37,054 bases of DNA. Origin: a virus. The translations under genes were made by a program, and so were the position numbers. The notes below the pieces were generated by a model, which worked only from the letters and a program-made list of their open reading frames with translations, made no database searches and was not told the origin of the DNA. Within the stretch, counting starts at the first letter, position 1; the number at the start of each line of letters is the position of its first letter. The stretch is taken from the IMG/VR virus record IMGVR_UViG_3300000563_000005, positions 10,143 through 47,196 of that record; one strand, given 5' to 3'. Positions 1 through 32,606 of this stretch are shown in pieces.

Positions 1-3000
1 GGTGCACAGAAACTAGATCCTTTACAAATGTACTCGTACTTAGCTCATGGTGATACAAAAGAACTGCTATACGAGGCCACAGCTATTAAAGGGCAAAAGA
101 ATGATGAATATTGGAGACAGTTGCAATTAGGTATGCCTCCGGTTAAACCTAAACACAATTTTGTATTTGAAAAAATGTTAAACTATATGCGAGCTGCTGG
201 CGCTGATGTTAAGAAGACTGGTGATGAGCTTGTAGTTACTCCATTAACTGATGACGAAGTATTACGCAATTCAGCAGGCGCTTTAAAATCAGCCGGTAAA
301 ATGCTGCGAGGTAAAGATCTTGCAGAAATACCTGGTGGATTGTTTGACAGAAAAATTACGGGAGGTATGCGCGGTGAAAATTGGTCGCATATCAAGTTAG
401 AAAATGAAATACCGCATCCTCTATATGAAAAGGCTATACTAAGTCTGTTAGATATGACTGGACCTCAGTTTGAAAAGATTATGAATGAGGAAGTTGAAGA
501 AGATGGCAAAACTGGCTCAGAGTTAATACGTCATAGATTAGCATCTATCGATCCAAAACTAGAAGTAAAACGAGTAAAAGAAGAACTACAGAAAGCACCT
601 GAAACCAAGGTTAATAAACTACATACTAGGCTACGTCATTTACAGGCCCTGGATAAGTTAAACTTAACCCCAGATAAGGCATATATGATGAAAAATGTTC
701 CTGTTCTTCCTCCAAAGTATAGACCAGTATATGTGATGGAAGATGGTAATCTTATGCCGTCTAAAATAAATTTAGCCTATAGAGATTTAGCTTTAACGAA
801 TAACCAAATAAAAGAAGTTCGTGAAATAGGGCTAGATGATAAAGAATTTAATCGTAACAATAGGCGTGAATTATATCAAACGGCTAAAGCTTTAGTGGGA
901 TTAACAGAACCTGCAACTTATTATAAAGATAAGACAGAAGGAGCAATTCGTTTCCTAGCAGGTACTGGACCAAAGCACGGATTTATTCAAAACAAGGTTT
1001 GGAGTAAAGCACAAGATCTAGCAGGCCGCTCTACCATTACCATTGAACCCTCATTGGGTCTCGATGAGGTTGGGTTACCCAAAGAAATGGCCCAGGACAT
1101 TTTCCGGCCATTCGTAGTAAAAGAACTTGTTAATCAAGGATTTACCCCAGTAGAAGCAGTTGAGCAGTTAGAGGAGTGGACATCCTCAGCGCAAACTGCA
1201 CTAGAAAACGTCGTACGTTCACGCCCAGTTATATTAAACCGTGCACCGTCTCTACATAAACATAGTGTGCAGTCATTCAGGCCTACTCTTACAGAGGGTA
1301 AGAGTATCAAACTTAATCCGCTTGTGTTTCAAGGATTCAATGCTGACTTAGACGGTGACACAATGTCAGTACACGTGCCTATATCGGATAAAGCAGTACG
1401 GGAAGCACACGGAATGATGCCGAGTAGAAATCTTTGGAAAGCTGGAGACAAAGCTCATATGCAGGGGTTCGGTCAAGATTATATACTAGGGCTATACTAT
1501 TTATCAGTAGAAGGTACTGAAACCGGAAGGTCATTCAATACTTTAGCCGAGGCTAAACGCGCTGGACTAAAAATGGATGATGTTATAAATATAGCCGGAA
1601 AAAGGACTACCCTTGGAATAGAATCGTTAAAGAAAGTGTTGCCTCAAAAATATCATAATTTTGCTCGGAATTTAGATGCTCGTAAACTTCAAGAATTGGT
1701 TGATAAGCTGGCTAAGGAAGATGATCATTTATTAACACAGGTTATGAACGACCTTAAGGATTTAGGTCGTGACTACGCTACACGTAGAGGTACGACTATA
1801 TCTATCACCGACATGGCCATCGACAGGTCTTTCCGTGACGATATACTAAAACGCTATGACCAAAAAGCTAAAACAGCCAAAACTCCGGAAGATAGAGCCA
1901 AGATATACTCAGAAGCTAAAAAAGAAATCGTGACAGAGCAGGATAGAAGGCTGCGCGGAAGAAACAACATGTATGATATGGTTATGTCTGGAAGCGCAGG
2001 GAAAAAAGGTGCAGGGGCATTGCCTCAGATATTAACATTTCCCGGGGTATTCGAAGATGTTCATGGTCGTCCTCTAAAGGAACCTGTACGAAAATCTTGG
2101 TCGGAAGGTTTGGATTCATCTGAATATTTTGGAACCTCGTTTGGAACGCGTAAAGGTATCATCGACAAAGCGGTTAATACGCAAGAGTCTGGTGCATTGA
2201 ATAAACGTATGTTATTTAATACAAAAGATTTGGTTATTACTGAAGAAGACTGCGGGACACGTGAAGGGCTAGAACTTGATATCAACGACAAAGATATTAT
2301 GGATAGATATATGGCTAGAAATGTCGCGGGCGTAGGTCGTCAAAATGATGTCATCGATCATACGTTAATAAATAAAGCCCGCATGAAAAATGTTGAAAAA
2401 CTTATAGCTCGTTCACCGTTAACGTGTGATACAGCAGATCACCGCGGTGTTTGTATAAAATGTTATGGTCTAATGGCTAATGGCAAACCTCCTAGAATAG
2501 GAGAGCCAGTAGGTATACTCGACAGTACCGCGGTTACCGAAAGATCAACACAGCTAACCATGCAAACGTTCCACTCAGCTGGAGCTGCCGGAGGAGGAGG
2601 AATTCTAGCGGGGTTCCCACGTCTGGAGGAACTTGTAATGTTTCCACAAGTCATAAAACAGAAAGGTGTTATGGCTAAACGAACTGGAACTGTAGATTCA
2701 ATACGACCTAACCCAGCCGGCGGTCGAGACTTATTTATTGATGGAGAAAGACATTTTATACCTCGTGAAAGACAACTTAAAGTTAAATTAGGAGATCGAG
2801 TGCAAAAAGGTGATGCTATTACTGATGGTTCATTAGATCCTAGAGAAATTTCACAGCTTCGTGATCACTTAGCTGCCCAACGCTACATTGTTGATGAAAT
2901 GGACAACGTTATGGGAAACAAATTCCATAAGCGAACTTTTGAAACAATTATGCGCGGTATAGGGAACAACGTAGAACTTACTGATGTACCGGAAGATGTC

Positions 3001-3306
3001 GATGAAGATATTGCACGAGGTGGTATATCAACACTGCCTATAATACGTAGACTTAATCGTCGTCGACAAGAAGAAAAGAAAAAACCAATTAAATTCCGTC
3101 CATACTTTAGAAGTATTGATATGTTACCGCTTGACAGTGATGATTGGTTAAGTAGACTGTCTACTAATAGATTAAAAGACACTATCGTGCAAGCTGCCAG
3201 TCAAGGAATGCGTAGCTCTATCCATGGACCTGATCCAATGCCAGGTTATCTACATGCTACTGAATTTGGTCAAGACCTTGACGCAGAATCCGGTAAATTT
3301 TATTAG
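1..3306 (+). CDS. Multisubunit-type RNA polymerase, beta C-terminus fused to beta-prime (5' end outside window)
   Basis: The frame is open at base 1, so the start lies upstream. The first codons (GAQKLDPLQMYSYLAHG, then LQLGMPP and MLNYMRAAGADV) match the C-terminal clamp of the beta subunit. With no stop, the frame continues into beta-prime: GGLFDRK near codon 112, RPVILNRAPSLHKHSVQSF, and the catalytic NADLDGD at codons 447-453 with metal-binding Asp449/451/453. The second zinc site is complete (Cys751, 809, 818, 821) and is followed by GEPVGILDSTAV and the trigger-loop segment QLTMQTFHSAG. The C-terminus (STNRLKDTIVQAASQGM) corresponds to the normal end of beta-prime. The usual F of NADFDGD is L, and the N-terminal zinc finger of beta-prime is missing. 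Role: DNA-dependent transcription, probably of phage genes. The beta-prime part is about 1,000 residues, shorter than the E. coli subunit. Identity is certain; the fusion is read directly but the 5' part is unseen. Confidence 0.95.
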   Translation, partial: GAQKLDPLQMYSYLAHGDTKELLYEATAIKGQKNDEYWRQLQLGMPPVKPKHNFVFEKMLNYMRAAGADVKKTGDELVVTPLTDDEVLRNSAGALKSAGKMLRGKDLAEIPGGLFDRKITGGMRGENWSHIKLENEIPHPLYEKAILSLLDMTGPQFEKIMNEEVEEDGKTGSELIRHRLASIDPKLEVKRVKEELQKAPETKVNKLHTRLRHLQALDKLNLTPDKAYMMKNVPVLPPKYRPVYVMEDGNLMPSKINLAYRDLALTNNQIKEVREIGLDDKEFNRNNRRELYQTAKALVGLTEPATYYKDKTEGAIRFLAGTGPKHGFIQNKVWSKAQDLAGRSTITIEPSLGLDEVGLPKEMAQDIFRPFVVKELVNQGFTPVEAVEQLEEWTSSAQTALENVVRSRPVILNRAPSLHKHSVQSFRPTLTEGKSIKLNPLVFQGFNADLDGDTMSVHVPISDKAVREAHGMMPSRNLWKAGDKAHMQGFGQDYILGLYYLSVEGTETGRSFNTLAEAKRAGLKMDDVINIAGKRTTLGIESLKKVLPQKYHNFARNLDARKLQELVDKLAKEDDHLLTQVMNDLKDLGRDYATRRGTTISITDMAIDRSFRDDILKRYDQKAKTAKTPEDRAKIYSEAKKEIVTEQDRRLRGRNNMYDMVMSGSAGKKGAGALPQILTFPGVFEDVHGRPLKEPVRKSWSEGLDSSEYFGTSFGTRKGIIDKAVNTQESGALNKRMLFNTKDLVITEEDCGTREGLELDINDKDIMDRYMARNVAGVGRQNDVIDHTLINKARMKNVEKLIARSPLTCDTADHRGVCIKCYGLMANGKPPRIGEPVGILDSTAVTERSTQLTMQTFHSAGAAGGGGILAGFPRLEELVMFPQVIKQKGVMAKRTGTVDSIRPNPAGGRDLFIDGERHFIPRERQLKVKLGDRVQKGDAITDGSLDPREISQLRDHLAAQRYIVDEMDNVMGNKFHKRTFETIMRGIGNNVELTDVPEDVDEDIARGGISTLPIIRRLNRRRQEEKKKPIKFRPYFRSIDMLPLDSDDWLSRLSTNRLKDTIVQAASQGMRSSIHGPDPMPGYLHATEFGQDLDAESGKFY

Positions 3307-3308
3307 GC

Positions 3309-3347
3309 TAAAAAAAAGAGCCCGAATAACCGGCGGGCCCTTTTTTT
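3309..3347. terminator. Two-way intrinsic terminator
   Basis: An A-run, a GC-rich stem (GCCCG with CGGGC, extended by flanking A:T pairs across one mismatch) and a T-run lie between the convergent ends of the polymerase gene and the 469-aa gene. The A-run and T-run flank both sides, so it can end transcripts from either strand. Confidence 0.85.
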
Positions 3348-3352
3348 ACTAC

Positions 3353-4762
3353 TTACCTTAAGCCATGACTATCAAGAGTAGACTTAAGGTTTCCTTTTGA
3401 CTCATGTTTTGGCAAACGTTTTCGGAACAGGCTATTCTTCAACAAATTTTTCATAACTTGTCGTGTCGACTCAATAACCTGTGTACCGGTCGTGCCTTCA
3501 GGTATATATATACAAGTACCCACGTTACGGCGCACGTCGAACTCCCTTTTTTCATTGAAAGTTCGTACCACCTGCTGTGCCACAATTTTGGACAGAAGGG
3601 GTAGAGTCTTTCGATTGGAAAACCACTCTATTGCTTCATTATTCAGCTCACCATCCACAGTAAACATATATATTCCGTTGGCTATTAGCCTTGAATGATA
3701 ACCTGAATTTGCCCGCAATGTTTTGTAAGTTGAGTCCTGGTTCACTCTATTACCTATAAGGCTCTTTAGCACGTTGATCCAGGTCTCGACCTCGTCACGA
3801 TCTGCTATGGGATCTAACCCTCTTATTGGAAGAAAATCTTCGTGGGTTAGTTGTTTGTTAACAAGGCTTGCTAGATGTAGTCTTTTTGTTAATCTAATAC
3901 CTAAGTGCTTATCCACTGCAAGATATCCTAGCAGATTCTTTTCCCACTGCCTAAACTCAGCAGGTACTTTGGCCTCCCAACGATCATACTGATCGCTGAG
4001 CCACTGAGTATATGCCAACACGTCATAATTATCTTCAGCAACGGCTCTCGCCCTTCTAGCAGCTACTGGGTTAAGATAAACTTTAACCCTCAAGTTTCTT
4101 CCTGCCAACGCGTTGCCAATTGCTTCTTCCGCCCCTGTAACAAAGCAAAGTTTGTTGGCAAAGATAGTTGCCGTTATTTCATCGCCGTGTTTCAGGTAGG
4201 AGTGATCTAAAACATCTGAAATGCGTGTAGGGTGTGTAATACGTGCATCGCCCCCAAAAGAAGACAGTGGTACATTTGTGGCGATAAAATATTCGCCATA
4301 TTCGTCGGTTTTTATGGTTGCTTTGATTTTGGTACCATCCTTAAGTTGGATGGTGCAGAACTTGCGTCCTCGACGAATAACAGTTATTGGTGAGGTTTTG
4401 TATCCCAATTTTGCTAAGAGATCTCCAACCTTGGCAATACAGTTTGGTCCAGTTGAAACCTCTTTCATTAGATTACGTAGGGCCTGTGCTTCAGGAGATG
4501 GCTCGATCCAACCTAGAATATTAGTTGTCTCAAGCATCAGAGCCACGTTACCTATAGTCCTAGCACTAGCTGCAAACGGTGTAAGGTGGCCCACAACCAC
4601 TTTTGTCTGTCCCCGCTTATAGGGCACATATTTCCCCAAAACGGGGTCGAAAAAATGTCCATCTTTGTGCGCTTGTTCTTCCATTTCGTCGTACACTGAC
4701 TTATTAATGGTGCGCTGTTGCGGATGGTTATCCGGTGAATTTACAAATGCTTTATGTGACAT
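3353..4762 (-). CDS. Phage protein of unknown function, 469 aa
   Basis: I do not recognise this protein. The ATG is preceded by AAGGAT at a good distance. There is no signal peptide, membrane segment or nucleotide-binding motif. The N-terminal 60 residues are hydrophilic and rich in charged residues and His. A middle part (about 130-240) alternates short beta-type stretches (FCTIQLKDGTKIKATIKTD). The C-terminal half is helical and basic. It faces the polymerase gene across a shared terminator and is the last gene of the minus-strand run from ThyX. A virion or replication-associated protein would fit the size, but nothing in the sequence decides it. Confidence 0.85.
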   Translation of the reverse strand: MSHKAFVNSPDNHPQQRTINKSVYDEMEEQAHKDGHFFDPVLGKYVPYKRGQTKVVVGHLTPFAASARTIGNVALMLETTNILGWIEPSPEAQALRNLMKEVSTGPNCIAKVGDLLAKLGYKTSPITVIRRGRKFCTIQLKDGTKIKATIKTDEYGEYFIATNVPLSSFGGDARITHPTRISDVLDHSYLKHGDEITATIFANKLCFVTGAEEAIGNALAGRNLRVKVYLNPVAARRARAVAEDNYDVLAYTQWLSDQYDRWEAKVPAEFRQWEKNLLGYLAVDKHLGIRLTKRLHLASLVNKQLTHEDFLPIRGLDPIADRDEVETWINVLKSLIGNRVNQDSTYKTLRANSGYHSRLIANGIYMFTVDGELNNEAIEWFSNRKTLPLLSKIVAQQVVRTFNEKREFDVRRNVGTCIYIPEGTTGTQVIESTRQVMKNLLKNSLFRKRLPKHESKGNLKSTLDSHGLR

Positions 4763-4812
4763 GTATATCCTTCCATAATTTATTTGGAATTATGCCAACT
4801 TCACTGTCACCC

Positions 4813-5076
4813 TCACTTATTTAATTGTTTATAAATATTTTTGACCTGAGATTTGTTTAGGTCAATTGCAAAAATTTTGCTCTTCCGATGTGCGTATACA
4901 TATCGGAAGATAGGTTCTTCAACTTTATTCTTATACCAGGAATAAATTGAAATTGGTATGTATGGGATAATAAAATCCACTATCCGCACCAATATAAATA
5001 AATATGCGGGCATATCTTGGCACATAATACCATTTTTATTACCCTCATCATCGTATAAAAAACTATAAGATCTCAT
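4813..5076 (-). CDS. Small membrane protein, 87 aa
   Basis: The start ATG overlaps the stop of the kinase-like gene upstream (ATGA), implying coupled translation. A hydrophobic stretch at about residues 23-45 (AYLFILVRIVDFIIPYIPI) looks like one membrane span. A basic tail (RKSK...NKSQVKNIYKQLNK) follows, probably cytoplasmic. Function unknown. Confidence 0.7.
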   Translation of the reverse strand: MRSYSFLYDDEGNKNGIMCQDMPAYLFILVRIVDFIIPYIPISIYSWYKNKVEEPIFRYVYAHRKSKIFAIDLNKSQVKNIYKQLNK

Positions 5077-5465
5077 AGGGGCCTCAGTTGAATGTGAAAA
5101 CGTGCTTCCATCTCATCGATGGTTTGTTTAGGAACATTATGTTCGGATACGCCTTTATGGCGATTCTCTACAATTATAGAAAAAGCCCGATGCCCCCATT
5201 CTTCAGCGTACTTAACATATTTATTTACTTCTGATTCTCGGGTAGATGTGTTAGATACTACCACGCTGTTTCCTTGCTTTAATTGTTCAGTCACCTTGCT
5301 AAAACACCATGCATGCGCATCTGATACTTTACTTGGATCAAAATTATAATTTCCATCTTTATCAGTGTGGTACATGTCTGCTTCAAAGTAAGGTAGTCCG
5401 AACATCTTGGCAAGCGTGGTCTTCCCAGAGCCAGGAAGACCACGTATAATAATTAGATCTGCCAT
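5073..5465 (-). CDS. AAA_33-type P-loop kinase (polynucleotide-kinase-like)
   Basis: Residues 9-17 (GLPGSGKTT) form a Walker A loop. The following FEADMYHTDKDGNYNFDPSK, the HAWCF helix and GNSVVVSNTSTRESEV match the kinase fold shared by T4 polynucleotide kinase and NEDD4-binding-protein-2-like ATPases (AAA_33). Family knowledge suggests phosphorylation of a nucleic-acid 5' end, but the substrate is not shown. At 130 aa it is a stand-alone kinase domain without the phosphatase of T4 Pnk; a HAD phosphatase-like gene lies at 16874-17380. It sits between two unknown genes, two bases from the upstream gene. Confidence 0.85.
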   Translation of the reverse strand: MADLIIIRGLPGSGKTTLAKMFGLPYFEADMYHTDKDGNYNFDPSKVSDAHAWCFSKVTEQLKQGNSVVVSNTSTRESEVNKYVKYAEEWGHRAFSIIVENRHKGVSEHNVPKQTIDEMEARFHIQLRPL

Positions 5466-5466
5466 A

Positions 5467-5940
5467 TTAAGGTAAGATTGGTGGTCCTAGATAAAACTTC
5501 TGGATGTACACTAGATCTCCTCCATCCATTCTTAGTTTGAATAGAGACCCATTATGATCCAAAAGTTTAGCGTGTGTTTGCCAGATAGGATTGAACAGAA
5601 CAAAGTGTTTATGTTTTTCTATTCTTTCCTTATCTTCCGGAAATTTCTTGAATAATTTATAATTCTTTTCGTCAAGAAGCATAAATTCTTCTTTTTCGTA
5701 CTCGTCCAAATCAGCTAGATAACAATACTCCTCCAAATCTGGATTAGTAGTTATTATCATGCCATTCCCAATTTCGTGTTTTTCCACTAGGGTGGTAACA
5801 TCATTGGCCTCATCAATTACTTTATATTCATAAGTTTCCGGATTAAGCTCAATTAAATAGTACCTATCCCATATCAATTTTCGTATGCTCCCAAATAAAC
5901 TCGTCATCCAAAATTGTTCCATTCTTTGGGCTGACGGCAT
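5467..5940 (-). CDS. Phage protein of unknown function, up to 157 aa
   Basis: Acidic protein with many aromatic and Glu/Asp residues and no motif I know. The first ATG (5940) lies 77 bases inside the upstream gene and has no ribosome binding site. A later start is likely: Met12, or a TTG near 5879 preceded by GGGAG, giving RYYLIELNPETYEYK as the N-terminus. The body alternates beta-type stretches (YYLIELN, GMIITTN, KHFVLFN, DLVYIQKFYL) with charged helices. It ends two bases before the kinase gene, in the same transcription unit. Confidence 0.75.
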   Translation of the reverse strand: MPSAQRMEQFWMTSLFGSIRKLIWDRYYLIELNPETYEYKVIDEANDVTTLVEKHEIGNGMIITTNPDLEEYCYLADLDEYEKEEFMLLDEKNYKLFKKFPEDKERIEKHKHFVLFNPIWQTHAKLLDHNGSLFKLRMDGGDLVYIQKFYLGPPILP

Positions 5941-6838
5941 TTATTTTAAAGTTTTTCCATTTTGGAAATCCGCCCGTTTTCTTCTCCTGTCGATTTAACT
6001 CTCCGACATTCACTGGAGTATATGGAACAAGCTTATCGTCGTAGATATTGGAATTACACACAAGTACATGTTGCTGCACTGAGTTACGAAGTTTACTCAC
6101 AACTATGATTCTCGCATAGTCCGGAGCTTTCATAAACAGGTTCTGTGCCAACAGATGATCATACCCATGCCGATACTTTTTCATCTCAACCATGAGACTC
6201 TTTGGCGTCATGTTTATTACTTCGTATTCAATGTCATCGATTGAGCTTAACAATACCGGCGATATCTGCTTTAGATTATCTTGTAACCAAGAAACTTGGT
6301 CTAACAGATAAACCTGAGCTGATTTTATTTTATCATCCGGATATTTGTCCACAAACGGAGTTGGAAACTCGTTTATGAAGTTACTCAATAACGAAGGAGT
6401 GTTATTTTTGTAATACAGATATCTATTTGTATTCCATAACTCCAATTCAGCTAATAAGATTTTGTGATTCGGAGTAGAATCAAATATCGATTTCCGGGTA
6501 GCTGGATCCAGCAAGGCTATTGCAAACACATCGATTGGATTTATATCGTATGTTGCACGATGTATCACATTTGGATACCAATCAGGATTCTGCATCACAA
6601 ACATATATGCCTGTGTTGCTATGGATGCCTGTCCATTTTTATCCTCCTGACGAAATAGCCGCTGATGGCCGAATGTTACTATACTACGATCACGTAGCAC
6701 CCGGTGTGCCGGTACTCCCGGCTCAAATAGTACTTTACCTTCCGGCGAAATATTTAAGCCGATAGCGCACTCTCCGTCACCTAATTCGATTTGGAGATTT
6801 TGCGCCCTTGCCGCGGACATGTCGATTAAGTTTATCAT
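5864..6838 (-). CDS. Phage protein of unknown function, 324 aa
   Basis: Not recognised. Its ATG overlaps the stop of the ClpA-like gene (ATGA), so the two are probably translated together and may act together. The N-terminal part (to about 60) is beta-rich (CAIGLNISPEGKVLFEPGVP). The middle is helical with conserved-looking aromatic residues (NPDWYPNV, LELWNTNRYLYY). No membrane or signal segment. An adaptor or substrate partner for the neighbouring unfoldase is a reasonable but unproven idea based only on the coupling. Confidence 0.85.
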   Translation of the reverse strand: MINLIDMSAARAQNLQIELGDGECAIGLNISPEGKVLFEPGVPAHRVLRDRSIVTFGHQRLFRQEDKNGQASIATQAYMFVMQNPDWYPNVIHRATYDINPIDVFAIALLDPATRKSIFDSTPNHKILLAELELWNTNRYLYYKNNTPSLLSNFINEFPTPFVDKYPDDKIKSAQVYLLDQVSWLQDNLKQISPVLLSSIDDIEYEVINMTPKSLMVEMKKYRHGYDHLLAQNLFMKAPDYARIIVVSKLRNSVQQHVLVCNSNIYDDKLVPYTPVNVGELNRQEKKTGGFPKWKNFKINAVSPKNGTILDDEFIWEHTKIDMG

Positions 6839-8967
6839 TTTATTACAATTTCTCCTTCTATTAATTCAATGAAGACCTCGTTGAGTTCTTCTTCCGTTTC
6901 GAGTAACTTATCAGCGAGTTTAGTTTCAATTAGATCCTGGATCACTCGCCTTAATGGTCTCGCCCCATATTTATCGGACCATCCTTTATCTACACAATAT
7001 TTCCGAGCTTCCTCAGAAATATTGATTTTAATTTTTGGATTCAAATCGACCAACAGTTTATCGAATATTAATCCGATATGCTCCATAGTTAACTTGTTAA
7101 AAAACACAATATTATCCACCCTATTTATGAACTCAGGTTGGAATGTATTTTCTACATCTTTGTCAACCATTTCTTTTACTGTCTCCTTATGGTCGCCAAA
7201 ACCAATCGTGGTCTTAGTCAGGTTACGGGCTCCAATATTACCAGTCATTATAATAATGGTATTCTGGAAGTCAACTTGTCTTCCCGATGAATCCGTTAAG
7301 TGCCCCTCCTCTAATATTTGAAGTAATACGTTATATATTTTAGGATGAGCTTTTTCGATTTCATCGAACAGAACCACTGAATAAGGTCTACGTCGAACTG
7401 CTTCGGTAAGTTTACCGCCTTCTTCGTAACCAATATACCCGGGAGGCGCTCCGATTAAATTACTTATCGTAAACTCTTGAGAAAATTCTGACATATCAAA
7501 TGCCAGAAAATGCTTTTCAGAATTGAACATCAACTTAGCTAATTGCTTAGCCAAATAAGTTTTACCTACACCGGTTGGTCCAAGAAATAGGAATGATGGG
7601 GCCTTTCGAAGCTGACTCGTCTTAACGCGAGCTCTTTTAACAGCTTTACTTAGTTCCCTAATTGCTTCCTCTTGACCTACAACCAATTTGTTCAAATCTT
7701 GCTCGAGCGTTTTTAGCTTTTCCCTGTCCTTTGCGGAAAGCTTATCCACCGGGATTCCTGTCATTGTTGCTACAACTCTTTGTACCACCGCTTCATCAAC
7801 CACTGCAGTTTTATTTAGTTTTGCTATACTTCCAGCTTCGTCTATCACGTCAAAACCCTTATCTGGAAAATTCTTATCCGTGATATAGCGCGCGCCTAGG
7901 TATACAACCTCTTCCAGGGCTTTAGGTGTAAACTGCAGATCATGAAACTTCTCGTACGAATAAACCGTATTTGTAAGAATCTCCAGGGTTTGGTCTTCGT
8001 TCGGCGGTTCTACGTATATCTTTTGGAACCTGCGCTCCAGCGCGGCGTCCGTCTCTATATGCTGTTTATATTCACGAGCGGTTGTTGCGCCTATGCAACG
8101 TATTTCTCCACGAGCCAGATACGGTTTTAATATATTAGCCGTATCTCCTTGGCCTTCCCGGTTACCGCTACCCACGATACCGTGAATCTCATCTATAAAC
8201 ACAATATAATCTGGATTACCGCGGAGATCCTGTATAACCGACTGCAATCGTTGCTCGAACTGTCCTCGGAATACTGCTCCGGAAATTAGGGCATTTAAGT
8301 CCAACATAAATATACGTTTATCCCGTAGAGGTTCCGGAACCTGTTTAGATACAATACGTTGCGCAAGTCCCTCAACTATGGCGGTCTTGCCGACGCCAGC
8401 TTCACCTATGAGTATAGGATTATTTTTGCGCTTTCTTCCAAGTATTTGAACTATGCGTTCCAATTCTGTTTCCCGATCAAATACCGGATCCAATTGATTT
8501 TGTTCAGCAGCTTCTATTAGATCTGTGGAGAAATGTTTAAGTGCGCCAGATTCCTCTTTGGGCTTTGGGGGCATAAATTCCTTACCAAAATAACCTGCCA
8601 TCCGTAAATGACGGTATGCTACGGTGTCCTCTTGGCTTATTATAGCCTCAAACAAATCATTTGAGGTAACTTCAGAACCCTGTGAAGATTCTTCGGCACG
8701 CTTTAGTATCAATGAGGCGCTTTCCCCGAATGACACTGCCTGCATCTGAAATCCTGGAGTCGGATACTTTAAATTCTCAACCAAACTAGATTCCAGTTTT
8801 GCGATGTTGTCAATTTTGGATATCAGAGTTTGGTGAGCACTGCATTTATCGGTTTGCACGATGGCTAATAATAAATGCGTACTTTCAATTCTGTTTTTAC
8901 CGTACTCTATACAGATCGTCTCAACCTGTTGCATAACTTCCTGTAGTTCTGACGAAAATGGTTTCAT
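6835..8967 (-). CDS. ClpA/ClpC-type AAA+ unfoldase with putative ClpP-docking loop
   Basis: Hexameric protein unfoldase of the Clp/Hsp100 class, 710 aa. Residues 1-140 resemble the Clp N-domain. D1 has Walker A GEAGVGKT (188-195), pore loop VFRGQFE and Walker B VFIDE (256-260). D2 has Walker A GPTGVGKT (463-470), pore loop GYIGYEEGG, Walker B VLFDE (to 536) and sensor 2 GARPLRR (668-674). The D1-D2 junction is short, without the coiled-coil middle domain of ClpB or ClpC, as in ClpA. An IGF tripeptide at 588-590 sits between NLTKTT and [11 protein letters not shown], exactly where ClpA has IGL and ClpC has VGF to dock ClpP. No clpP or clpS is seen nearby, so it may use host ClpP. Coupled to 5864-6838. 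Confidence 0.95.
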
Positions 8968-9128
8968 TTTTCAGCTTTCTGTAAATATAACAATAGAACA
9001 TACCAATAAGCCTTGGTATTATCCTTTTTTAGTTGATTTAATGATTTAAACGGAGCAATTGGCTCCGAAGGAATGTCAACGATACTAAGATTGTATTTCT
9101 TTAGTATCTTGGGAATTGTTATCTTCAT
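8964..9128 (-). CDS. Small basic protein, 54 aa
   Basis: Reading starts best at the ATG at 9128 (MKITIPKILKKYNLS); a TTG seven codons earlier is possible. It overlaps the end of thyX by 44 bases in another frame and its stop overlaps the start of the ClpA-like gene. Lys-rich N-terminus and a short hydrophobic stretch (AYWYVLLLYL) near the C-terminus. Function unknown; the tight coupling on both sides supports a real gene. Confidence 0.55.
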   Translation of the reverse strand: MKITIPKILKKYNLSIVDIPSEPIAPFKSLNQLKKDNTKAYWYVLLLYLQKAEK

Positions 9129-9921
9129 ATTTATCCAATTCTTCAAATGAAGACGGGAAATACTTTAGTGTAGCTTCGTATGTCCAAGGCATTTTCTCCT
9201 TGAATATCTTTAGTATTTCGTACGCGTAATCCCGTATCTCTTTTTGTGCATGTGATTCACAGCGCAAAATAAAGAAATTCATCAAAGATCGAGCGTTAAC
9301 CGTCCACGTAAATTGTGTATAATAAGCCGTTCCCAATACTCCACGCGCCAACTCCTTCGCTAATCCGGCTTCTTTTAACCAAGTATATATCCACTGTTGT
9401 CGGTACAACTCATGTTCGTATACCTGCCATAATTTTACTCTTTGATGATTATTACGATAATTTATTTTATAGAATGCATCATCATATATAGGATGATGAA
9501 ATGGAAATTCAAAACTAGCCAGGTCTGCGTCTACGCTGCCTTGCTTGTTTTCTTTTGATTGCGGTCTATATTTATCTGGACGGTGGAAATTATCAGCAAT
9601 TTTTTCTGTATATCGTCCAGACATCGTATTAATACTTGACCAACGATGCTTTACCCATTGAAAATGTACGTACAGCGGACATCTTATCCTGAACTGGAAT
9701 ACCGCGGCTTCTAGCGGTGTGCCGTGCTCGTGTTCTAAAAGGAAGTGTAATAATTTTCTGTCTTTTTCCGGACCTTTTAGATTTCCGGCATATGATGATC
9801 GTGCGGCTGCGACTGCTAGTTCATCCAGCGTTTTAGCGCACCCTTCATCTGTTTCTTCGGACACCAATGAGCCTACGAACTTAATCCAGCCATCTGTGCC
9901 TATTTTAATTTTTTCACTCAT
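9085..9921 (-). CDS. thyX: Flavin-dependent thymidylate synthase ThyX
   Basis: Makes dTMP from dUMP using FAD, NADPH and methylene-tetrahydrofolate, securing thymidine for phage DNA synthesis. The ThyX signature (RHRxxSxNExSxRY) is present as KHRWSSINTMSGRY at about residues 92-105: the first Arg is Lys and the Glu after Asn is Thr, while the central HR, S, N, S and RY are kept. The C-terminal core has GVLGTAYYTQFTWTVNARSL and HAQKEIRDYA, the substrate- and FAD-binding region of the family. Its length of 278 aa is somewhat above the common 220-250. It opens the unit that runs into the Clp-type gene, just after a terminator. ThyX is frequent in phages whose hosts may or may not use ThyA. Confidence 0.95.
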   Translation of the reverse strand: MSEKIKIGTDGWIKFVGSLVSEETDEGCAKTLDELAVAAARSSYAGNLKGPEKDRKLLHFLLEHEHGTPLEAAVFQFRIRCPLYVHFQWVKHRWSSINTMSGRYTEKIADNFHRPDKYRPQSKENKQGSVDADLASFEFPFHHPIYDDAFYKINYRNNHQRVKLWQVYEHELYRQQWIYTWLKEAGLAKELARGVLGTAYYTQFTWTVNARSLMNFFILRCESHAQKEIRDYAYEILKIFKEKMPWTYEATLKYFPSSFEELDKYEDNNSQDTKEIQS

Positions 9922-9937
9922 GTTAATTTTTATTAGT

Positions 9938-9966
9938 TAAAATAAAGGGCCCCTAGTTGGGGCCCC
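9938..9966 (-). terminator. Intrinsic terminator upstream of thyX
   Basis: On the minus strand a perfect 7-8 bp stem of G and C (9947-9966, loop of about five bases) is followed by TTTATTTT. It ends the transcript of the 208-aa signal-anchor gene and separates it from thyX. Confidence 0.75.
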
Positions 9967-9970
9967 ATAA

Positions 9971-10597
9971 TCAATATGTAAGGATGATGGCCCTTGAAAT
10001 ATCGGCCATTGCGTTATGTATATCATCTTCGTACATACGTTTTGAAGTAGCGGCTGACATAACACCATAATCTTCGATTATGGCAGATAACATTCTGCCA
10101 CTATAATGATCGTGAACATACGTACGTATTGACCCATATTTGGTTCTTTCCACATGAACCTTATCGCCAAATGTGGAATCCAACTGCTCCAAAAATGCGC
10201 GGTTATATTTAGTAAACGCGGGCCCATCCCCCTGTATCACCCTTGCGGCCATTGCAAATCCAGTACCTACGACCTTATCATTATAAATAAATGCTATAAA
10301 AGCGTAGTTACTATAACGATATTTGTCCGAAAAAATAATGACGTCTAGGTACCCATTGAACACTAAATGCTCTAACTCAACTTTGCTATCCGAGGGCATT
10401 CGCTCAAGAACACTTACTGCATGATTAAGCGATGAACCATATGGTATGGCTGGAAATAGACTTTCCAATGGCTCTTCGTCTGTTTGAACAGCTGAACTAC
10501 CGGATGTATCGATAAAATGCCCAACCGCCGAGATCACTAGAAGTGTGGCGATCAAGGACATTAAGATTCCTATAACCGTCTTTTTAGTCCCGGTCAT
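9971..10597 (-). CDS. Signal-anchored periplasmic protein of unknown function, 208 aa
   Basis: A very strong ribosome binding site (AAAGGAGGT) precedes the ATG. Residues 7-26 (TVIGILMSLIATLLVISAVG) form one membrane span after a short basic start (MTGTKK), so the rest likely lies in the periplasm. The soluble part has mixed beta and helix (LVFNGYLDVIIFSDKYRYSN, FIAFIYNDKVVGTGFAM) and no Cys. It is a single-gene unit: a promoter-like motif stands at 10641-10657 and a terminator at 9938-9966. Being separately and strongly expressed suggests a specific role, perhaps at the envelope, but no family is recognised. Confidence 0.85.
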   Translation of the reverse strand: MTGTKKTVIGILMSLIATLLVISAVGHFIDTSGSSAVQTDEEPLESLFPAIPYGSSLNHAVSVLERMPSDSKVELEHLVFNGYLDVIIFSDKYRYSNYAFIAFIYNDKVVGTGFAMAARVIQGDGPAFTKYNRAFLEQLDSTFGDKVHVERTKYGSIRTYVHDHYSGRMLSAIIEDYGVMSAATSKRMYEDDIHNAMADISRAIILTY

Positions 10598-10640
10598 ATC
10601 AACCTCCTTTTTGTTGGTGAATAAATTTACCTTACACTAA

Positions 10641-10657
10641 TCTTATACCATAATTTA
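10641..10657 (-). promoter_or_regulatory. Putative extended -10 promoter motif, copy 1
   Basis: On the minus strand the 17-mer TAAATTATGGTATAAGA lies 44-60 bases before the start of the 208-aa gene. An identical 17-mer stands at the same distance before the zinc-binding gene at 27387-27671. It contains TGnTATAAG, an extended -10, but no -35 match, so it could be used by host sigma70 or by the phage polymerase. Confidence 0.5.
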
Positions 10658-10900
10658 AGTAAATAGTTCCGTCATGACATCAGCTATATCCGTATTTGAT
10701 ACACCAAGTTCATGTAGGTTTTCAACTATAGCTTCACAATAGGGATCTATTTCTGCTATGAATTTATCCGGATTGATTTGGTTCAGAATCGTTATGGGGT
10801 CCGTCGTTGATTCGAACCGCACCTTTGATATCCACAGATCCCATATCTGGTTCTTGTAGGATTTTGTCTCTAATATCTTCTTTTTCGGCACGAGTGGCAT
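10655..10900 (-). CDS. Hypothetical small protein, up to 81 aa
   Basis: The ATG at 10900 lies 137 bases inside the upstream 208-aa gene. A GTG at about 10821, preceded by AAAGG-like bases, would give a 54-aa protein (VRFESTTDPITILNQ...). The C-terminal half is a convincing acidic helical sequence (YCEAIVENLHELGVSNTDIADVMTELF). The overlap means the start is unsure. It is the last gene before the promoter motif at 10641-10657. Confidence 0.5.
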   Translation of the reverse strand: MPLVPKKKILETKSYKNQIWDLWISKVRFESTTDPITILNQINPDKFIAEIDPYCEAIVENLHELGVSNTDIADVMTELFT

Positions 10901-11390
10901 AAAATAGTTCTCCTATAAACAAGCGTATAAGTTCGATTAGAGTTATTGGTGCGAACGGAACCACTACACCATCCTTATCTCTTAGCGCGTGGTCAATAAT
11001 GATTTCTACATTTTTGAAGGTAGGTACAAGATCATAATGAAGAGCCCACCAAGCTGCGTCTGTTTCGCCTACCATATGCAAATGCATGCCAAATTTAGAG
11101 AGTGATCTTCTTACCTTTATTCGGTCAAACTTTGCAGGTTGCGCAATTTCGTTAAACTGACTCTCAAGATCTCCGATATGATTTTGTAATAGTATAGATG
11201 AAAGTATCAAGTCCAATACTTGATCATCCCTGTATATAACATTATACAATCTTTTAGCTGTAACATTCTCTAGCTGTACAGGTTCAGTTAAAAAGGGGAG
11301 AATAGTATCAAATTGTAACTTGCTGTCTTCATCTCCCCTTGGATAATATATAATATTACTATCAGTAATTTTTACTATATTATGCATCAA
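10764..11390 (-). CDS. Phage protein of unknown function, 208 aa
   Basis: Start overlaps the stop of the TM/coiled-coil gene upstream (ATGA), placing it in the transglycosylase unit. Mostly helical with a Trp-Trp pair (TDAAWWALHYDLVP) and hydrophobic segments too broken up to be clear membrane spans. The last 40 residues are polar (GPHNDSEPNQSG) and overlap the next gene. No family recognised. Confidence 0.75.
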   Translation of the reverse strand: MMHNIVKITDSNIIYYPRGDEDSKLQFDTILPFLTEPVQLENVTAKRLYNVIYRDDQVLDLILSSILLQNHIGDLESQFNEIAQPAKFDRIKVRRSLSKFGMHLHMVGETDAAWWALHYDLVPTFKNVEIIIDHALRDKDGVVVPFAPITLIELIRLFIGELFYATRAEKEDIRDKILQEPDMGSVDIKGAVRINDGPHNDSEPNQSG

Positions 11391-12211
11391 AACCTCACAT
11401 GATATCCGACATTGAATGTGGAGTGGTGAAGGTCGTATGTGAATATATAGTTTCTGTAATATAACCCACCTTGTATATTCACAAACGTGTTATTAAACGC
11501 AATGCTACCAGCAGGCACTCCAGCGTATAATCCAGCATGGATTCCATACTGTCGCACAGGTCGTGCGGGTGCGGGCGCTGTATGTAGCAATCTAAATGCT
11601 TCGGGATCCATTTGATGAGATGCCGACAAATTGACTCCCGGTACTCCGGATACTGTACGTATCCGCCATATACCATCTTCATCACGACCCAACTCACTGT
11701 ATATAGGTATAGGATCTATATTGATAGATATGTCATAATAAGATGCGGGTAGGTTGTCAACATAGGCTCGCGTATATCCAGTATAATGTATTATATTTCT
11801 AGAGCCTGAAAAGTCAATCTGTAAGTATGCTCCCGTGGTATCTTCACCACTTATGGCATCGACAAATTGTTTGTCGTGTAAGCTATCGATCTCAGCTTGT
11901 AGTTCAGATGCAATACCTATCCAACGCTGTGCGCGGCTTCTTTCAGCGTTATAGCGATTAACCATGTCATTTAGATCACTATTTAAATCAGTAACTCGAA
12001 CTGCCAACGTATGTATGCTGTCGGCTTTCTGCTCGAGTTGTTCATTATACCACGCTTCATTCTGCGCTATCTGGCTCTCCGCAGCTTCCAATTCTGCGCG
12101 AGCTGCGTCACGCTGGGATTTAAAAGTACTAGCTGCTATTGTTAACGATACTATCATCAAAGCAACAGCAGCTATAACAAGTCCCGATGATCCTAATAAA
12201 TTTCCAATCAT
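11387..12211 (-). CDS. TM/coiled-coil protein with beta-barrel-like C-terminus (possible spanin-type)
   Basis: Residues 10-28 (GLVIAAVALMIVSLTIAAS) are a membrane span. Residues 30-115 are an Ala/Glu/Gln-rich coiled coil (RAELEAAESQIAQNEAWYNEQ), interrupted once. The C-terminal 60 residues are short amphipathic strands rich in Tyr and Gly ending in a terminal Phe (NVGYHVRF), like the last strand of an outer-membrane barrel. The glycosyltransferase fusion at 25466-27340 ends in the same HVRF. The gene follows the transglycosylase gene by two bases. A protein anchored in the inner membrane and reaching the outer membrane, next to a wall-cutting enzyme, recalls spanins, but this is inference. 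SD AGGAGAGAA. Confidence 0.8.
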   Translation of the reverse strand: MIGNLLGSSGLVIAAVALMIVSLTIAASTFKSQRDAARAELEAAESQIAQNEAWYNEQLEQKADSIHTLAVRVTDLNSDLNDMVNRYNAERSRAQRWIGIASELQAEIDSLHDKQFVDAISGEDTTGAYLQIDFSGSRNIIHYTGYTRAYVDNLPASYYDISINIDPIPIYSELGRDEDGIWRIRTVSGVPGVNLSASHQMDPEAFRLLHTAPAPARPVRQYGIHAGLYAGVPAGSIAFNNTFVNIQGGLYYRNYIFTYDLHHSTFNVGYHVRF

Positions 12212-12213
12212 TG

Positions 12214-12984
12214 TTATTTCTCTCCTGTGTATACATACGTGAATAGGTAAGGTTGTTCCCAGCTATCCAAGTAATTTTTAATTCTCATTACTTCACGCAC
12301 ATAGTTACGAGTTTCGCGATATGGGGGTATCCCTCCAAAACGCTGAACCGCTCGTGGGCCAGCATTATATGCAGCTAATGCCAAAGGTATGCTATTATAT
12401 CTATCTAGCATTGCACGTAAATATGCCGTTCCTCCCATAATATTTTGTTGGGGATCCCATACGTCCAATACTCCCACCTCCATGGCGGTGATATCCATTA
12501 ATTGCATTAGCCCCTTTGCACCCTTATGCGATTGGGCCAACACATTTGCATTGGATTCCACATATATGATTGCCTTGATTAAGTTGGGCTCAATATTATA
12601 CGTGTGTGAAGCTTGACAAATATACGGTAAGTATGTATTTAAACGATTCATAAAAACCACCTCTCTAACGTCGTACCTATTAAACTCGAATTCGTTTTGG
12701 GTTAAGTCCCTAAGAGCGTTTACCGCATCGAGTATTTCGGTAAATGAGGTGGACGTTTCTAATACATGCTGTATATTTTTGATTGTCTGGACAGTATCGA
12801 TTTCTCGATATATCTTGTCCGCAAAAAATAAGTGTACTCCATAAATATTACCGTTGAGATAAAATACCCCAGGTGGTGGAGTAACTTCCGGCTTTGGTTT
12901 AATTTGTGAAAATAGCAATAGTCCTAATATAAGAACTATCCATCCAAAAATGACGACTGTCTCTACTTTAGTAGGCTGTCTCAT
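12214..12984 (-). CDS. Membrane-anchored lytic transglycosylase (SLT domain)
   Basis: Residues 9-27 form an N-terminal anchor. From about 125 the goose-lysozyme-like SLT fold is clear: IKAIIYVESNAN with the catalytic Glu143, HKGAKGLMQLMDITA, NIMGGTAYLRAML and LALAAYNAGPRAVQ. The enzyme cleaves peptidoglycan by forming anhydromuramyl ends, in the periplasm. The anchor may act as a signal-arrest-release segment, in which case it would be a phage endolysin, or the protein may be a virion or envelope enzyme. Its start overlaps the stop of the 41-aa basic gene and it is followed at two bases by the TM/coiled-coil gene. Confidence 0.9.
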   Translation of the reverse strand: MRQPTKVETVVIFGWIVLILGLLLFSQIKPKPEVTPPPGVFYLNGNIYGVHLFFADKIYREIDTVQTIKNIQHVLETSTSFTEILDAVNALRDLTQNEFEFNRYDVREVVFMNRLNTYLPYICQASHTYNIEPNLIKAIIYVESNANVLAQSHKGAKGLMQLMDITAMEVGVLDVWDPQQNIMGGTAYLRAMLDRYNSIPLALAAYNAGPRAVQRFGGIPPYRETRNYVREVMRIKNYLDSWEQPYLFTYVYTGEK

Positions 12985-13106
12985 TTATTTTTCCCCTTTA
13001 TTGTTTTTGATTTTCGTTGCTGTTTACGCTTACCAGCAAATTTTTTAGCTATACCGGCCTTCTGCAAAGCCGCCTGTAACCCATCTTTATAACCTTTAGG
13101 CTTCAT
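12981..13106 (-). CDS. Basic microprotein, 41 aa
   Basis: A short frame with its own ribosome binding site (AGGAGAAAG) reads MKPKGYKDGLQAALQKAG and then a Lys/Arg-rich tail (FAGKRKQQRKSKTIKGKNK). It overlaps the end of the RNA ligase gene and its stop overlaps the start of the transglycosylase gene. The strong positive charge suggests binding to nucleic acid or membrane surfaces; function unknown. Confidence 0.7.
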   Translation of the reverse strand: MKPKGYKDGLQAALQKAGIAKKFAGKRKQQRKSKTIKGKNK

Positions 13107-14196
13107 CACTTTCTCCTAGCAACTCCCGTTGCGTCCTTAAAGTAAATTTGGATAAGTCGACATTACCAGTCTTCGATAATGAAAAAGCAATGCCTCTATC
13201 AATAGAATCAGAGTACACGTTGAGTATATGCTCAGCCTTTTCTTTTTGACTGGCGTCTTCTGGAAGTTGTTGTAAGGTTTCTTTGATACTTTCAACCTTT
13301 TTCAAATAGTCCTCATACTTTCGATATAGATTATCTGATAAACGAAAAGCTTCTTCTAACGATTCAAAATCATATAATTCTTTTAATGTTTCTTCAAAAG
13401 TATTTTTATCTGGACATCCTTGATTTATAAACAACTCACGTATACGCTTTTCAGTTAACTCTGCTTTGGCACGATGCTTTGCCAAATACCAATCAGACTT
13501 AACTTTTAAAATCTTCTGATCATTGTCATAGTATAGGCAGTATCCCTCTATACCTTCAACAACCAGTAAATATTTGATTAACTCCGATAAAGATTCAAAC
13601 TCCTGATTACATATTCGAGGTCTTGGTACGTCTAATTCATTCGCCAATACATCTAGCTCTAGTTGGTTATAGAGTGAGTAGTCCTCATGCCTAATGGCAC
13701 CTACCAGATATATGTCAGGTTCCATAGATTTAATTATTATGGTATTCCTTGGAGAAAGCCATTCATAAATATACGAAATATTTTGCTTACCTTCAAGTGC
13801 CCCGGGATATTTTTTGGATAATATATCGATTTCATCTCCGTTTGGATGATATCGTGCATTTAATTGTCGACGTGTTCGTATAATATCGGTATCTTTATAC
13901 TTACTGACTATTAAAGCGCTACCATCCAATTTCTCTATTATATTAACCCCCTCCAAATTACTTGGTGGTATTGGGAATAGATCGCGCCTTTCTCCTAGAT
14001 TAAAGAATTTCGGAAATGATGCTGATACTAGCTCACCATTTTCATTCCACAAACTTGACCTAAAGATCAGATTATCGGGTGTCCAAAACTCAAAGCTTAA
14101 CAGTCTTGGATATGTAAGATATAGCTTATGTCCATTGAGGTAATGTTCCCGTACGTGAAATATTGACCGATCAACGTCTTTCAGATTAATTCTCAT
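13096..14196 (-). CDS. RNA ligase, T4 Rnl1-like
   Basis: ATP-dependent RNA ligase that joins 3'-OH and 5'-phosphate ends through enzyme-AMP and RNA-adenylate steps. Visible nucleotidyltransferase motifs: I, EKLDGS (adenylated Lys near residue 89, the KxDG box); IIIa-like, ISYIYEWLSPRNTIII; IV, EGYCLYY; V, KVKSDWYLAKH, which is typical of the T4 Rnl1 group. The helical C-terminus (240-366) fits the Rnl1 tRNA-recognition domain. The ATG at 14196 is chosen because GAGGA precedes it; an ATG four codons earlier lacks a site. In T4, Rnl1 acts with Pnk to mend tRNA cut by host anticodon nucleases; kinase- and phosphatase-like genes are also in this window. Confidence 0.92.
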   Translation of the reverse strand: MRINLKDVDRSIFHVREHYLNGHKLYLTYPRLLSFEFWTPDNLIFRSSLWNENGELVSASFPKFFNLGERRDLFPIPPSNLEGVNIIEKLDGSALIVSKYKDTDIIRTRRQLNARYHPNGDEIDILSKKYPGALEGKQNISYIYEWLSPRNTIIIKSMEPDIYLVGAIRHEDYSLYNQLELDVLANELDVPRPRICNQEFESLSELIKYLLVVEGIEGYCLYYDNDQKILKVKSDWYLAKHRAKAELTEKRIRELFINQGCPDKNTFEETLKELYDFESLEEAFRLSDNLYRKYEDYLKKVESIKETLQQLPEDASQKEKAEHILNVYSDSIDRGIAFSLSKTGNVDLSKFTLRTQRELLGESDEA

Positions 14197-14302
14197 TATT
14201 TTCCTCATCTAGTTCATAGATAGATATGTTGCAAGGATTTCCGTCAGTGTCTTCATCAAAATAACCAAAATACCACCGAACGTGTATAATTAATTGTTCC
14301 AT
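14186..14302 (-). CDS. Acidic microprotein, 38 aa
   Basis: Short frame MEQLIIHVRWYFGYF... ending in a very acidic tail (YELDEENNEN). AGGAAA precedes the ATG. It overlaps the 91-aa gene by 47 bases and the ligase start by 11 bases. It fills the only gap between those genes, which supports it; function unknown. Confidence 0.5.
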   Translation of the reverse strand: MEQLIIHVRWYFGYFDEDTDGNPCNISIYELDEENNEN

Positions 14303-27782: not shown

Positions 27783-28457
27783 TTATCGATCACGTTCTCT
27801 TGACCTGGACGGAGTATTTCTTGTTGTTTCACGAGATCTACTTTCTTCACGCGAACGCGAAGGTGTCTGTCTTACCTCAGGTTGTCTTGTCCTGCTTGGT
27901 GTCTGTCTTACCTCAGGTTGTCTCGTTCTGCTAGGAGCTTGCCGTGTTTCAGGCTGTCTTGTCCGGCTTGGCGTTTGTCTTGTTTCCGGCTGTCTTGTCC
28001 TGCTTGGTGTCTGTCTTACCTCAGGTTGTCTTGTTCGACTTGGTGTCTGTCTTACCTCAGGTTGTCTTGTCCTGGTAGGTGCAGGTCTTGTCTCGGGCTG
28101 TCTTACTCTGGCCGGAGCTTGCCGTGTTTCAGGTTGTCTGGTGCGTGTTGCACCAAATGTGCGCACAGTCTGCGGTCTGTATACAAATGCAGACTGAGGA
28201 CGATAATGGTATGGTCTATAATACCATCCGTAATAATACGGCCGGTACCAATAAGTAACCCTATAAGGGTAATACCAATAGTACGACGTGTGCCAATAGT
28301 AACTCGGATAGTATCCATAGAAAAATACCCGATGTGGCACGTGTTGTACGTGGTATACGTGTGTCCTCACGGTAACCGGTTCGCGAACACCGACTTTAGT
28401 GTAGACACATCCTGAAAATAGCATTACTGCTATTAATATTAACATTATCTTTTTCAT
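27783..28457 (-). CDS. Tyr-rich, repeat-containing lipoprotein, 224 aa
   Basis: Signal peptide MKKIMLILIAVMLFSGC with a lipobox (LFSGC, lipidated Cys17) sends it to the cell envelope. Residues 40-95 are extremely rich in Tyr, Trp, His and Pro (YYPSYYWHTSYYWYYPY). Residues 105-205 are about eight 12-residue repeats (RTRQPEVRQTPS with E/V or A variants), strongly basic and Pro-rich, ending in an SR-rich tail (PSRSRERDR). An extended, positively charged envelope protein could bind wall, LPS or nucleic acid; none is proven. GGAGGT site and a consensus sigma70 promoter point to strong expression by host RNA polymerase. Confidence 0.85.
   Translation of the reverse strand: MKKIMLILIAVMLFSGCVYTKVGVREPVTVRTHVYHVQHVPHRVFFYGYYPSYYWHTSYYWYYPYRVTYWYRPYYYGWYYRPYHYRPQSAFVYRPQTVRTFGATRTRQPETRQAPARVRQPETRPAPTRTRQPEVRQTPSRTRQPEVRQTPSRTRQPETRQTPSRTRQPETRQAPSRTRQPEVRQTPSRTRQPEVRQTPSRSREESRSRETTRNTPSRSRERDR
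27862..28145 (-). repeat. Tandem 36-bp coding repeat, about eight units
   Basis: The DNA repeats every 36 bases, in frame with 12-residue units, with point differences concentrated at the variable codons (Val/Thr, Thr/Ala). Copy number could change by slippage or recombination without breaking the frame. Confidence 0.85.
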
Positions 28458-28476: not shown

Positions 28477-28505
28477 ATTATAGCAATAACCGTGCCAATT
28501 GTCAA
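28477..28505 (-). promoter_or_regulatory. Consensus sigma70 promoter
   Basis: On the minus strand TTGACA (28505-28500), 17 bases, TATAAT (28482-28477): both boxes and the spacing match the ideal bacterial housekeeping promoter. The start codon of the lipoprotein is 20 bases past the -10 box. The -35 box overlaps the stop codon of the frame upstream. Confidence 0.9.
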
Positions 28506-31421: not shown

Positions 31422-31721
31422 CTATTCTGGTAAAATTTCTAGTTTATCATTCACTAATATTTCAATACAATATTCCGGTTTTGTAAGTATTGCTTTTATC
31501 AAGGTCATTCCCCAATAACTTCTTTTAAAATCCCCAGACGGCTTTACCTGACATACAACATGTAAAAACCTATCTAGTTCTTCGGGATCAATTAAATGGC
31601 CATTTACATACATATAAGCTTTATAATATTTTGCCTCTAATATATTTCTAGCATATAAACCTATAAAGTTAGGAGGTTCATATGCAAAACATAATTCAAC
31701 TGGCGTATTAAGTATTTTCAT
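31422..31721 (-). CDS. DPEY-family protein, 99 aa (outlying member)
   Basis: Carries the family's two boxes: YVNGHLIDPEELDRFL in the middle and KAILTKPEYCIEIL near the C-terminus. Asp of DPEY is Lys here. It is separated from the main group (33170-36680) by the exonuclease and two other genes. The N-terminal 45 residues (MKILNTPVELCFAYEPPN) are specific. Function of the family is unknown. Confidence 0.75.
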   Translation of the reverse strand: MKILNTPVELCFAYEPPNFIGLYARNILEAKYYKAYMYVNGHLIDPEELDRFLHVVCQVKPSGDFKRSYWGMTLIKAILTKPEYCIEILVNDKLEILPE

Positions 31722-31734
31722 AGTTTAATTAAAG

Positions 31735-31890: not shown

Positions 31891-31896
31891 AATATT

Positions 31897-32121: not shown

Positions 32122-32127
32122 AATTTC

Positions 32128-32585: not shown

Positions 32586-32606
32586 ATGTTATACTATCGT
32601 GCTGGT

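Follow-up and report, generated by a model that had tools for sequence, protein, structure and literature searches.

The window analysed here is a 37,054-nt stretch of virus DNA (bases 10143-47196 of the 48,707-base IMG/VR record IMGVR_UViG_3300000563_000005, which is itself a fragment), and it opens inside a gene for a bacterial-type RNA polymerase (RNAP) in which the β and β′ subunits are joined. Frame 1 of the window is open from base 1 to a stop at 3306 (1,101 codons). Record bases 1-14000 (called L002) were used for the DNA upstream of the window, and the whole gene was found as one open reading frame (ORF) of 2,373 codons at record bases 6327-13448, starting 3,816 bases upstream of window base 1 with an ATG at 6327 that is preceded by AAGGA. 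A sequence-only reading of the window had proposed that β runs into β′ in one polypeptide; this holds, as neither a stop nor a separate β gene is present upstream and a complete β is encoded in the same frame. The RpoB and RpoC profiles of Pfam and NCBIfam both match the one chain (NCBIfam E-values of 1.4e-151 for rpoC and 2.7e-88 for rpoB), RpoC over residues 1440-2348. β occupies residues 1-774 and 1130 to ~1346 of the 2,373-aa ORF, and β′ follows directly. In nearly all cells β and β′ are separate proteins. At a probability of roughly 0.78, we take the feature to encode the C-terminal half of a DNA-dependent RNAP core that is of bacterial type, forms a single chain and belongs to a tailed phage.

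A single-sequence scan of viral contigs with the whole protein gave no match and alignment-based scans were needed; with alignments, scans of IMG/VR returned hundreds of relatives, with up to 80 loci taken per scan, so that all counts given here are among the matches listed. Our census comprises the loci of the first three of these scans (130 distinct contigs). The β/β′ junction lies inside one ORF in 130/130 contigs, of which 118 carry a wholly fused enzyme, typically 2,015-2,200 aa long without inserts. About a dozen of the 130 ORFs end within β′, nine with the remainder in a separate ORF and one simply cut by the contig end. Unfused relatives had a chance to turn up, because in two later scans the patterns lay outside the junction. 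The isolated phages Arash (Salmonella) and D69, D148 and D181 (Vibrio) encode a ~1,525-aa protein made of β and the N-terminal half of β′ with the same junction, the rest of β′ being a separate 606-609-aa protein. The lineage is found in many environments and metagenomes, and the junction serves as the lineage marker that had been suspected. An assembly or base error joining adjacent genes, or ambiguous bases hiding a stop, might mimic a fusion, and 12 N-containing codons do lie just before the window (record bases 9945-10142). However, none of them can be a stop, whatever the base, and the same in-frame junction recurs in all 130 relatives, from many metagenomes, and in two isolated phages; since relatives share the junction, an artefact is already refuted and we give it practically no weight.

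The sequence-only reading had assigned the first ~60 window codons to the C-terminal clamp of β, and structural alignment extends the β sequence over the first ~74 (Table 1). In the AlphaFold model of the window protein (predicted local distance difference test score, pLDDT, 88.2; predicted template modelling score, pTM, 0.84), alignment to bacterial β′ chains begins at residue 72-74, which is paired with β′ residues 3-6 of Thermus and Mycobacterium, and extends over ~990 residues with Z ~30; the whole model reaches a template modelling (TM) score of 0.84 to a model of B. subtilis RpoC. The model of the close relative L012, which spans the junction (pLDDT 86.8, pTM 0.78), aligns to bacterial β chains with Z ~31, most rows ending at residue 637-644, i.e. 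at window codons 74-81. The folds of bacterial β and β′ are recovered for both halves in these predicted structures (Z ~31 each). The junction is formed by a two-strand hairpin with a block-mean pLDDT >90, and the models place the two subunits back to back through this confidently predicted hairpin instead of a loose linker.

The DxDGD triad of β′, the catalytic GDK/GNK lysines of β and the trigger loop AVTERSTQLTMQTFHSAG are conserved in the alignment, and on catalytic motifs and predicted fold the chain is classed as a two-barrel, multisubunit-type, DNA-dependent RNAP. The β′ landmarks picked out earlier (GGLFDRK at 334-354, NADLDGD, the four cysteines and the trigger loop) are all correctly placed. 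Two features come in addition: an intein in β upstream of the window, and the loss of the first zinc ribbon of β′ (Zn1), which is absent in the window protein, with no CxxC at this place in 130/130 relatives. The β′ clamp helices are in bacteria the binding region for sigma region 2; part of them is found in the window protein. In the rifampicin pocket, the alignment has the bacterial LSQFMDQNNPLSEITHKRRxSALGP replaced by LSNAAPQTNLVEMLSEWRKTTIRGE; because of this replacement the phage enzyme is predicted to be, and should be, resistant to rifampicin. E. coli β H1237 contacts the initiating nucleotide. At the equivalent position (L002 about 8595-10140), the aligned phage enzymes carry Lys, Ser, Glu or others, never His.

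Table 1. Features of the fused RNAP gene and its surroundings (window positions unless L002 is given).
Feature	Position	Strand	Basis
Last 1,101 codons of the fused β-β′ RNAP gene, with its stop	1..3306	+	ORF analysis
End of β: C-terminal clamp helices, codons 1-74	1..222	+	alignment to relatives and bacterial β; structural alignment limits
Fusion point: hairpin of two strands (codons 68-73, 76-81), no linker	202..243	+	AlphaFold models, structural alignment
GGLFDRK...WSHIKL, β′ N-terminal region with the first zinc ribbon deleted	334..399	+	alignment to relatives/bacteria
Part of the β′ clamp helices, NNRRELYQTAK	856..888	+	position from sequence
NADLDGD catalytic Mg-binding triad, codons 447-453	1339..1359	+	alignment
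Second zinc site, Cys codons 751, 809, 818, 821	2251..2463	+	alignment
Trigger loop AVTERSTQLTMQTFHSAG, codons 844-861	2530..2583	+	alignment
A-run, G+C-rich stem, T-run: probable (bidirectional) intrinsic terminator 3′ of the RNAP gene	3311..3347	+	folding, -15 kcal/mol, z -3.5
Genes for reverse transcriptase, VWA protein and MoxR ATPase, immediately before the RNAP gene	L002 529-5506	-	profile match for reverse transcriptase PF00078

The β part is interrupted by a 355-aa insert (residues 775-1129, record bases 8649-9713) at GDKL|SGRYGNKG, an active-site motif. Its first residue is Cys1 (C775), its last is Asn (N1129|S1130), and in between lie the TxxH block TPNH and a match to a LAGLIDADG domain (PF14528, E 2.7e-12); by these hallmarks it is classed as an intein with a LAGLIDADG homing domain. 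After translation the intein would excise itself and leave a mature chain of 2,018 aa that folds as one unit. Inteins occupy the same β site in at least eight relatives, and in five they lie close by within that motif; other sites are LDPxxTPE (four relatives), NADFDG(D) (five) and the trigger loop (TM|TFH or FH|SGG, five). Six relatives (L217, L282, L278, L224, L066 and L284) have inteins that interrupt NADFDG(D) and the trigger loop of β′ themselves, and L217 carries three in one 3,259-aa polymerase frame. Placed in the Mg-binding motif and trigger loop, such inteins would make the phage polymerase dependent on protein splicing. Two further observations concern mobile elements. An intein 34.5% identical to that of the window phage is found in Prevotella phage Lak-A1 (L009 7194-9320), in a different, non-polymerase Lak protein. 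In Vibrio phage D181 (L004 3977-9491) the β part is broken after ~residue 493 by a stretch with a homing-endonuclease ORF, which, by comparison with the intact close relative D69, we read as a recent intron-like or free-standing invasion.

A tree was computed from 62 rows and 1,030 columns (β C part, β′ N part, β′ C part) by a quick search with Shimodaira-Hasegawa-like approximate likelihood-ratio (SH-aLRT) support only; the comparison set was bacterial, with Helicobacter and Wolbachia proteins, archaea, eukaryotes and nucleocytoplasmic large DNA viruses (NCLDV) left out. The phage enzymes form one clade (support 100) on a long branch outside the bacteria, and the window enzyme groups with those of L012 and L013 (support 100). 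The re-splitting of β′ in the clade that includes Arash and D69 appears as one event, placed within a group of wholly fused enzymes. A scan of genome contigs matched only bacterial enzymes, one of them fused, and so gave no host assignment; the fused one is L136, a bacterial contig from a metagenome-assembled genome that has its own rpoB and rpoC in one frame (L136 3-4895, isolate CSMAG_1505, labelled only 'bacterium' in its record), keeps Zn1 and nests within the bacteria. Because the phage enzymes are one clade and L136 lies inside the bacteria, the phage fusion is independent of the L136 fusion. By this sequence comparison, a large phage lineage inherited the fusion from its common ancestor, and the fusion originated separately from the bacterial one tested. 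The proposal of an independent design is thereby borne out with L136 as the bacterial fusion, whereas the fusion can no longer be viewed as a feature of one phage, since it belongs to a large family in which some members re-split β′ elsewhere. The label 'near-bacterial' applies to the enzyme only in part, given the long branch and the missing Zn1.

Takeover by a phage of a bacterial fused rpoBC of the Helicobacter or Wolbachia kind is a rival origin, and the NCBIfam models of fused RpoBC do match strongly (E 1e-145 and 7e-120). However, the plain RpoC model scores higher than these, the phage clade sits on its long branch while the single bacterial fused enzyme detected falls within the bacteria and has Zn1, and Zn1 is missing in every one of the 130 phage enzymes; we consider such a takeover very improbable. 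Several public 'phage' records (OR84xxxx, MT83xxxx including MT836236 and MT838503, AGRM/AFYI and CAKLQ) hold bacterial rpoBC in mislabelled or mixed records and were not counted; bacterial rpoBC operons in such records point to host contamination or mislabelling. Rhizobium phage Y65 is not fused, having a separate β′ with Zn1 and no detectable β, and neither are Cobetia phage Carin-5 and Yersinia phage GN1, which have a sigma and separate genes in the order β′, β.

Published virion proteomics of the split relative Arash (PMC10585845) reports 3,516 spectra for Gp206, the most of any protein, 1,210 for Gp216 and 467 for the sigma factor Gp010. In our alignment Gp206, labelled 'subunit beta' by its authors, is a fusion of β with the N-terminal half of β′, and Gp216 is the C-terminal half of β′; the fused subunit, the remainder of β′ and sigma are hence all abundant in purified virions. 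Among 97 loci, a homologue of the Arash portal adjoins the RNAP gene in 84, and homologues of the Arash virion protein Gp218 lie downstream of it in ~92. The Arash virion data and this neighbourhood together make packaging likely for much of the lineage; most of its members probably package the enzyme and eject it along with their DNA.

Bacterial RNAP works with α and ω. Profile searches for α (PF01000) and ω (PF01192) gave no match in 15 records, the positive controls matching, and sigma70 region 2 scored above the cut-off in the records of 6/14 relatives, several of which are near-complete. The phage of L012, the nearest relative, encodes a complete 271-aa RpoD/RpoS-like sigma next to its DNA polymerase gene. 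The covalent join could take over the role of α and ω in bringing β and β′ together, and the single-chain core with a phage sigma would then transcribe phage genes. A more specific proposal, that virions carry a sigma-dependent holoenzyme without α or ω, consisting of one fused β-β′ chain and phage sigma and ejected with the DNA, is put forward tentatively, the odds standing somewhat against it. If it is true, fusion would ease the reunion in the host of subunits threaded through the tail, and the virion polymerase would work like a bacterial holoenzyme. As an alternative, the single chain might not be a self-sufficient core and might assemble with the host α dimer and ω, perhaps also host sigma, as a replacement core; the overall predicted fold is that of bacterial β and β′, no phage α or ω was detected by the profiles, and sigma was not found in every relative. 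Set against this are the near-complete relatives with their own sigma, the Arash virions that hold phage β/β′ and sigma, and the presence of the lineage in many environments without an α of its own, so that we regard a replacement core as unlikely.

Several points weigh against the single-chain, packaged core. For the full-length fused members the polymerase activity is predicted. The absence of α and ω was established by profile searches only; divergent versions may have been missed, or host α may be used. Sigma was not detected in several relatives or in the 48.7-kb window record, which is a fragment. The penultimate residue of the intein is Gly, not His, and its splicing is inferred. The Arash evidence is limited to spectral counts, because the 'coverage' column reads ~100% even for two-peptide proteins. 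Finally, the window phage and the phages of L012 and L013 have their RNAP gene away from the portal, alone between opposite-strand genes; upstream of it, on the opposite strand, all three carry genes for a reverse transcriptase (PF00078), a VWA protein and a MoxR ATPase in the same order. In the window phage, moreover, a perfect TTGACA-17-TATAAT lies 28 nt ahead of the RNAP start codon; chance would give 0.01 such sites in the 14-kb stretch concerned. Packaging is least certain for this subclade because the gene is not beside the portal and has a perfect consensus promoter.

The last two points favour a non-virion enzyme whose gene the host polymerase would read early and which would then serve the middle and late genes without being packaged. 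The RNAP gene of L012 is likewise preceded by a host-type promoter (TTGACA-17-TATATT), and the isolated position is common to all three subclade members, whose enzyme may instead be made early from such a promoter. Conversely, the RpoD-like phage sigma might recognise this promoter too; elsewhere in the lineage the RNAP gene belongs to the virion module, and Arash packages the enzyme. For the window, L012 and L013 subclade this early, non-virion enzyme is a serious rival, to which we assign close to an even chance. A host-type promoter is not a family trait, the median over 124 loci being like that of random windows. Apart from the RNAP gene, a second perfect TTGACA-17-TATAAT was seen at window 28477-28505 (minus strand); 20 nt separate it from a lipoprotein-like gene downstream (27783-28457), which is rich in repeats (TRQPEVRQ).

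Downstream of the RNAP gene, the probable terminator in Table 1 was missed by a simple terminator scan because its loop is 9 nt. Elsewhere in the window, a T4-like RNA ligase/tail-fibre attachment protein (13096-14208) and thymidylate synthase (9085-9921; both minus strand) support the tailed-phage origin of the record. An ORF at 25466-27340 (minus strand) combines a glycosyltransferase-like N-terminal half (weak GtrB-like match) with what appears by eye to be an outer-membrane β-barrel ending in HVRF, and the ORF at 11387-12211 has a similar end; these barrel-like ends hint at a Gram-negative host. A group of at least nine small ORFs, of 78-130 aa, is found at 31422-36680 (minus strand) and in L003 1-1638; their C-termini have in common a motif of the type L-F-x-D-P-E-Y with a short tail behind it, and from their sequences they are read as an expanded family of paralogous small proteins.

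The enzyme would be a naturally single-chain, bacterial-type RNAP that apparently needs neither α nor ω and has no Zn1, so that the roles of these parts become testable in one protein. A whole virus lineage has reversed the near-universal cellular split of β and β′ and later reintroduced it, in part and elsewhere in the chain. The junction and the loss of Zn1 are clean lineage markers that bear on the choice between an ancient origin of phage polymerases and a reworking of bacterial ones and, if packaging holds across the lineage, its phages inject a near-complete holoenzyme. Annotation pipelines label the gene 'beta' or 'hypothetical', and fusion and intein are missed.

Among known systems, the closest are the Multimeric RNAP-encoding Caudovirales (mReC), described in 2020 by Weinheimer and Aylward (PMC7481178) as a deep clade of phage β/β′ in IMG/VR contigs. 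As here, these are tailed-phage contigs whose β/β′ were found by cellular profiles and form a clade apart from cells (in our tree, apart from bacteria). In the accessible parts of that paper β and β′ are treated as subunits, fusion is mentioned for crAssphage only and inteins are not mentioned. The present polymerases were probably already seen there without mention of the fusion, and overlap of the two families is very likely; the contigs named in the paper are not among the loci listed here. The mReC capsid family PF07068 matched 0/14 relatives, with no match in the controls either, and the mReC marker Terminase_6N gave a terminase match in 5/15 records. No report of the fusion, the Zn1 loss or the active-site inteins was found in the accessible parts of the open-access literature, bioRxiv not covered, and the fused family has apparently been overlooked. 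Arash Gp206/Gp216 (PMC10585845) and their counterparts in D69, D148 and D181 share the junction, the Zn1 loss and the clade, and in Arash the virion association; they differ in that β′ is re-split after the catalytic barrel, and they are annotated as beta, beta-prime or hypothetical, the fusion not being mentioned in the parts of the sources available.

Inteins near the active site were already known from the second subunits of eukaryotic RNAPs (PMC1635734), where they likewise sit at the most conserved sites, whereas the phage inteins occur in both β and β′, including NADFDG(D) and the trigger loop, with up to three per chain. The fused RpoBC of Helicobacter, Wolbachia and L136 also has β and β′ in one frame; L136 differs by its Zn1 and its place inside the bacterial tree, and Helicobacter and Wolbachia were compared through NCBIfam model scores only. 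From bacterial RpoB and RpoC proper the window chain is set apart by the missing Zn1 and its position outside the bacterial tree (support 100). RNAPs of the phiKZ type are likewise phage-encoded two-barrel enzymes with virion and non-virion forms and without α or ω. They are much more divergent and, according to the accessible parts of PMC7598289, built from at least four to five polypeptides, whereas here there is one chain, or two in the derived clade. The crAss-like and YonO enzymes also hold both barrels in one chain, and the crAss enzyme is found in the virion; as far as the accessible text of PMC7481178 goes, they have no recognisable similarity to COG0085/COG0086, in contrast to the strong RpoC and RpoB matches of the fused enzyme described here.

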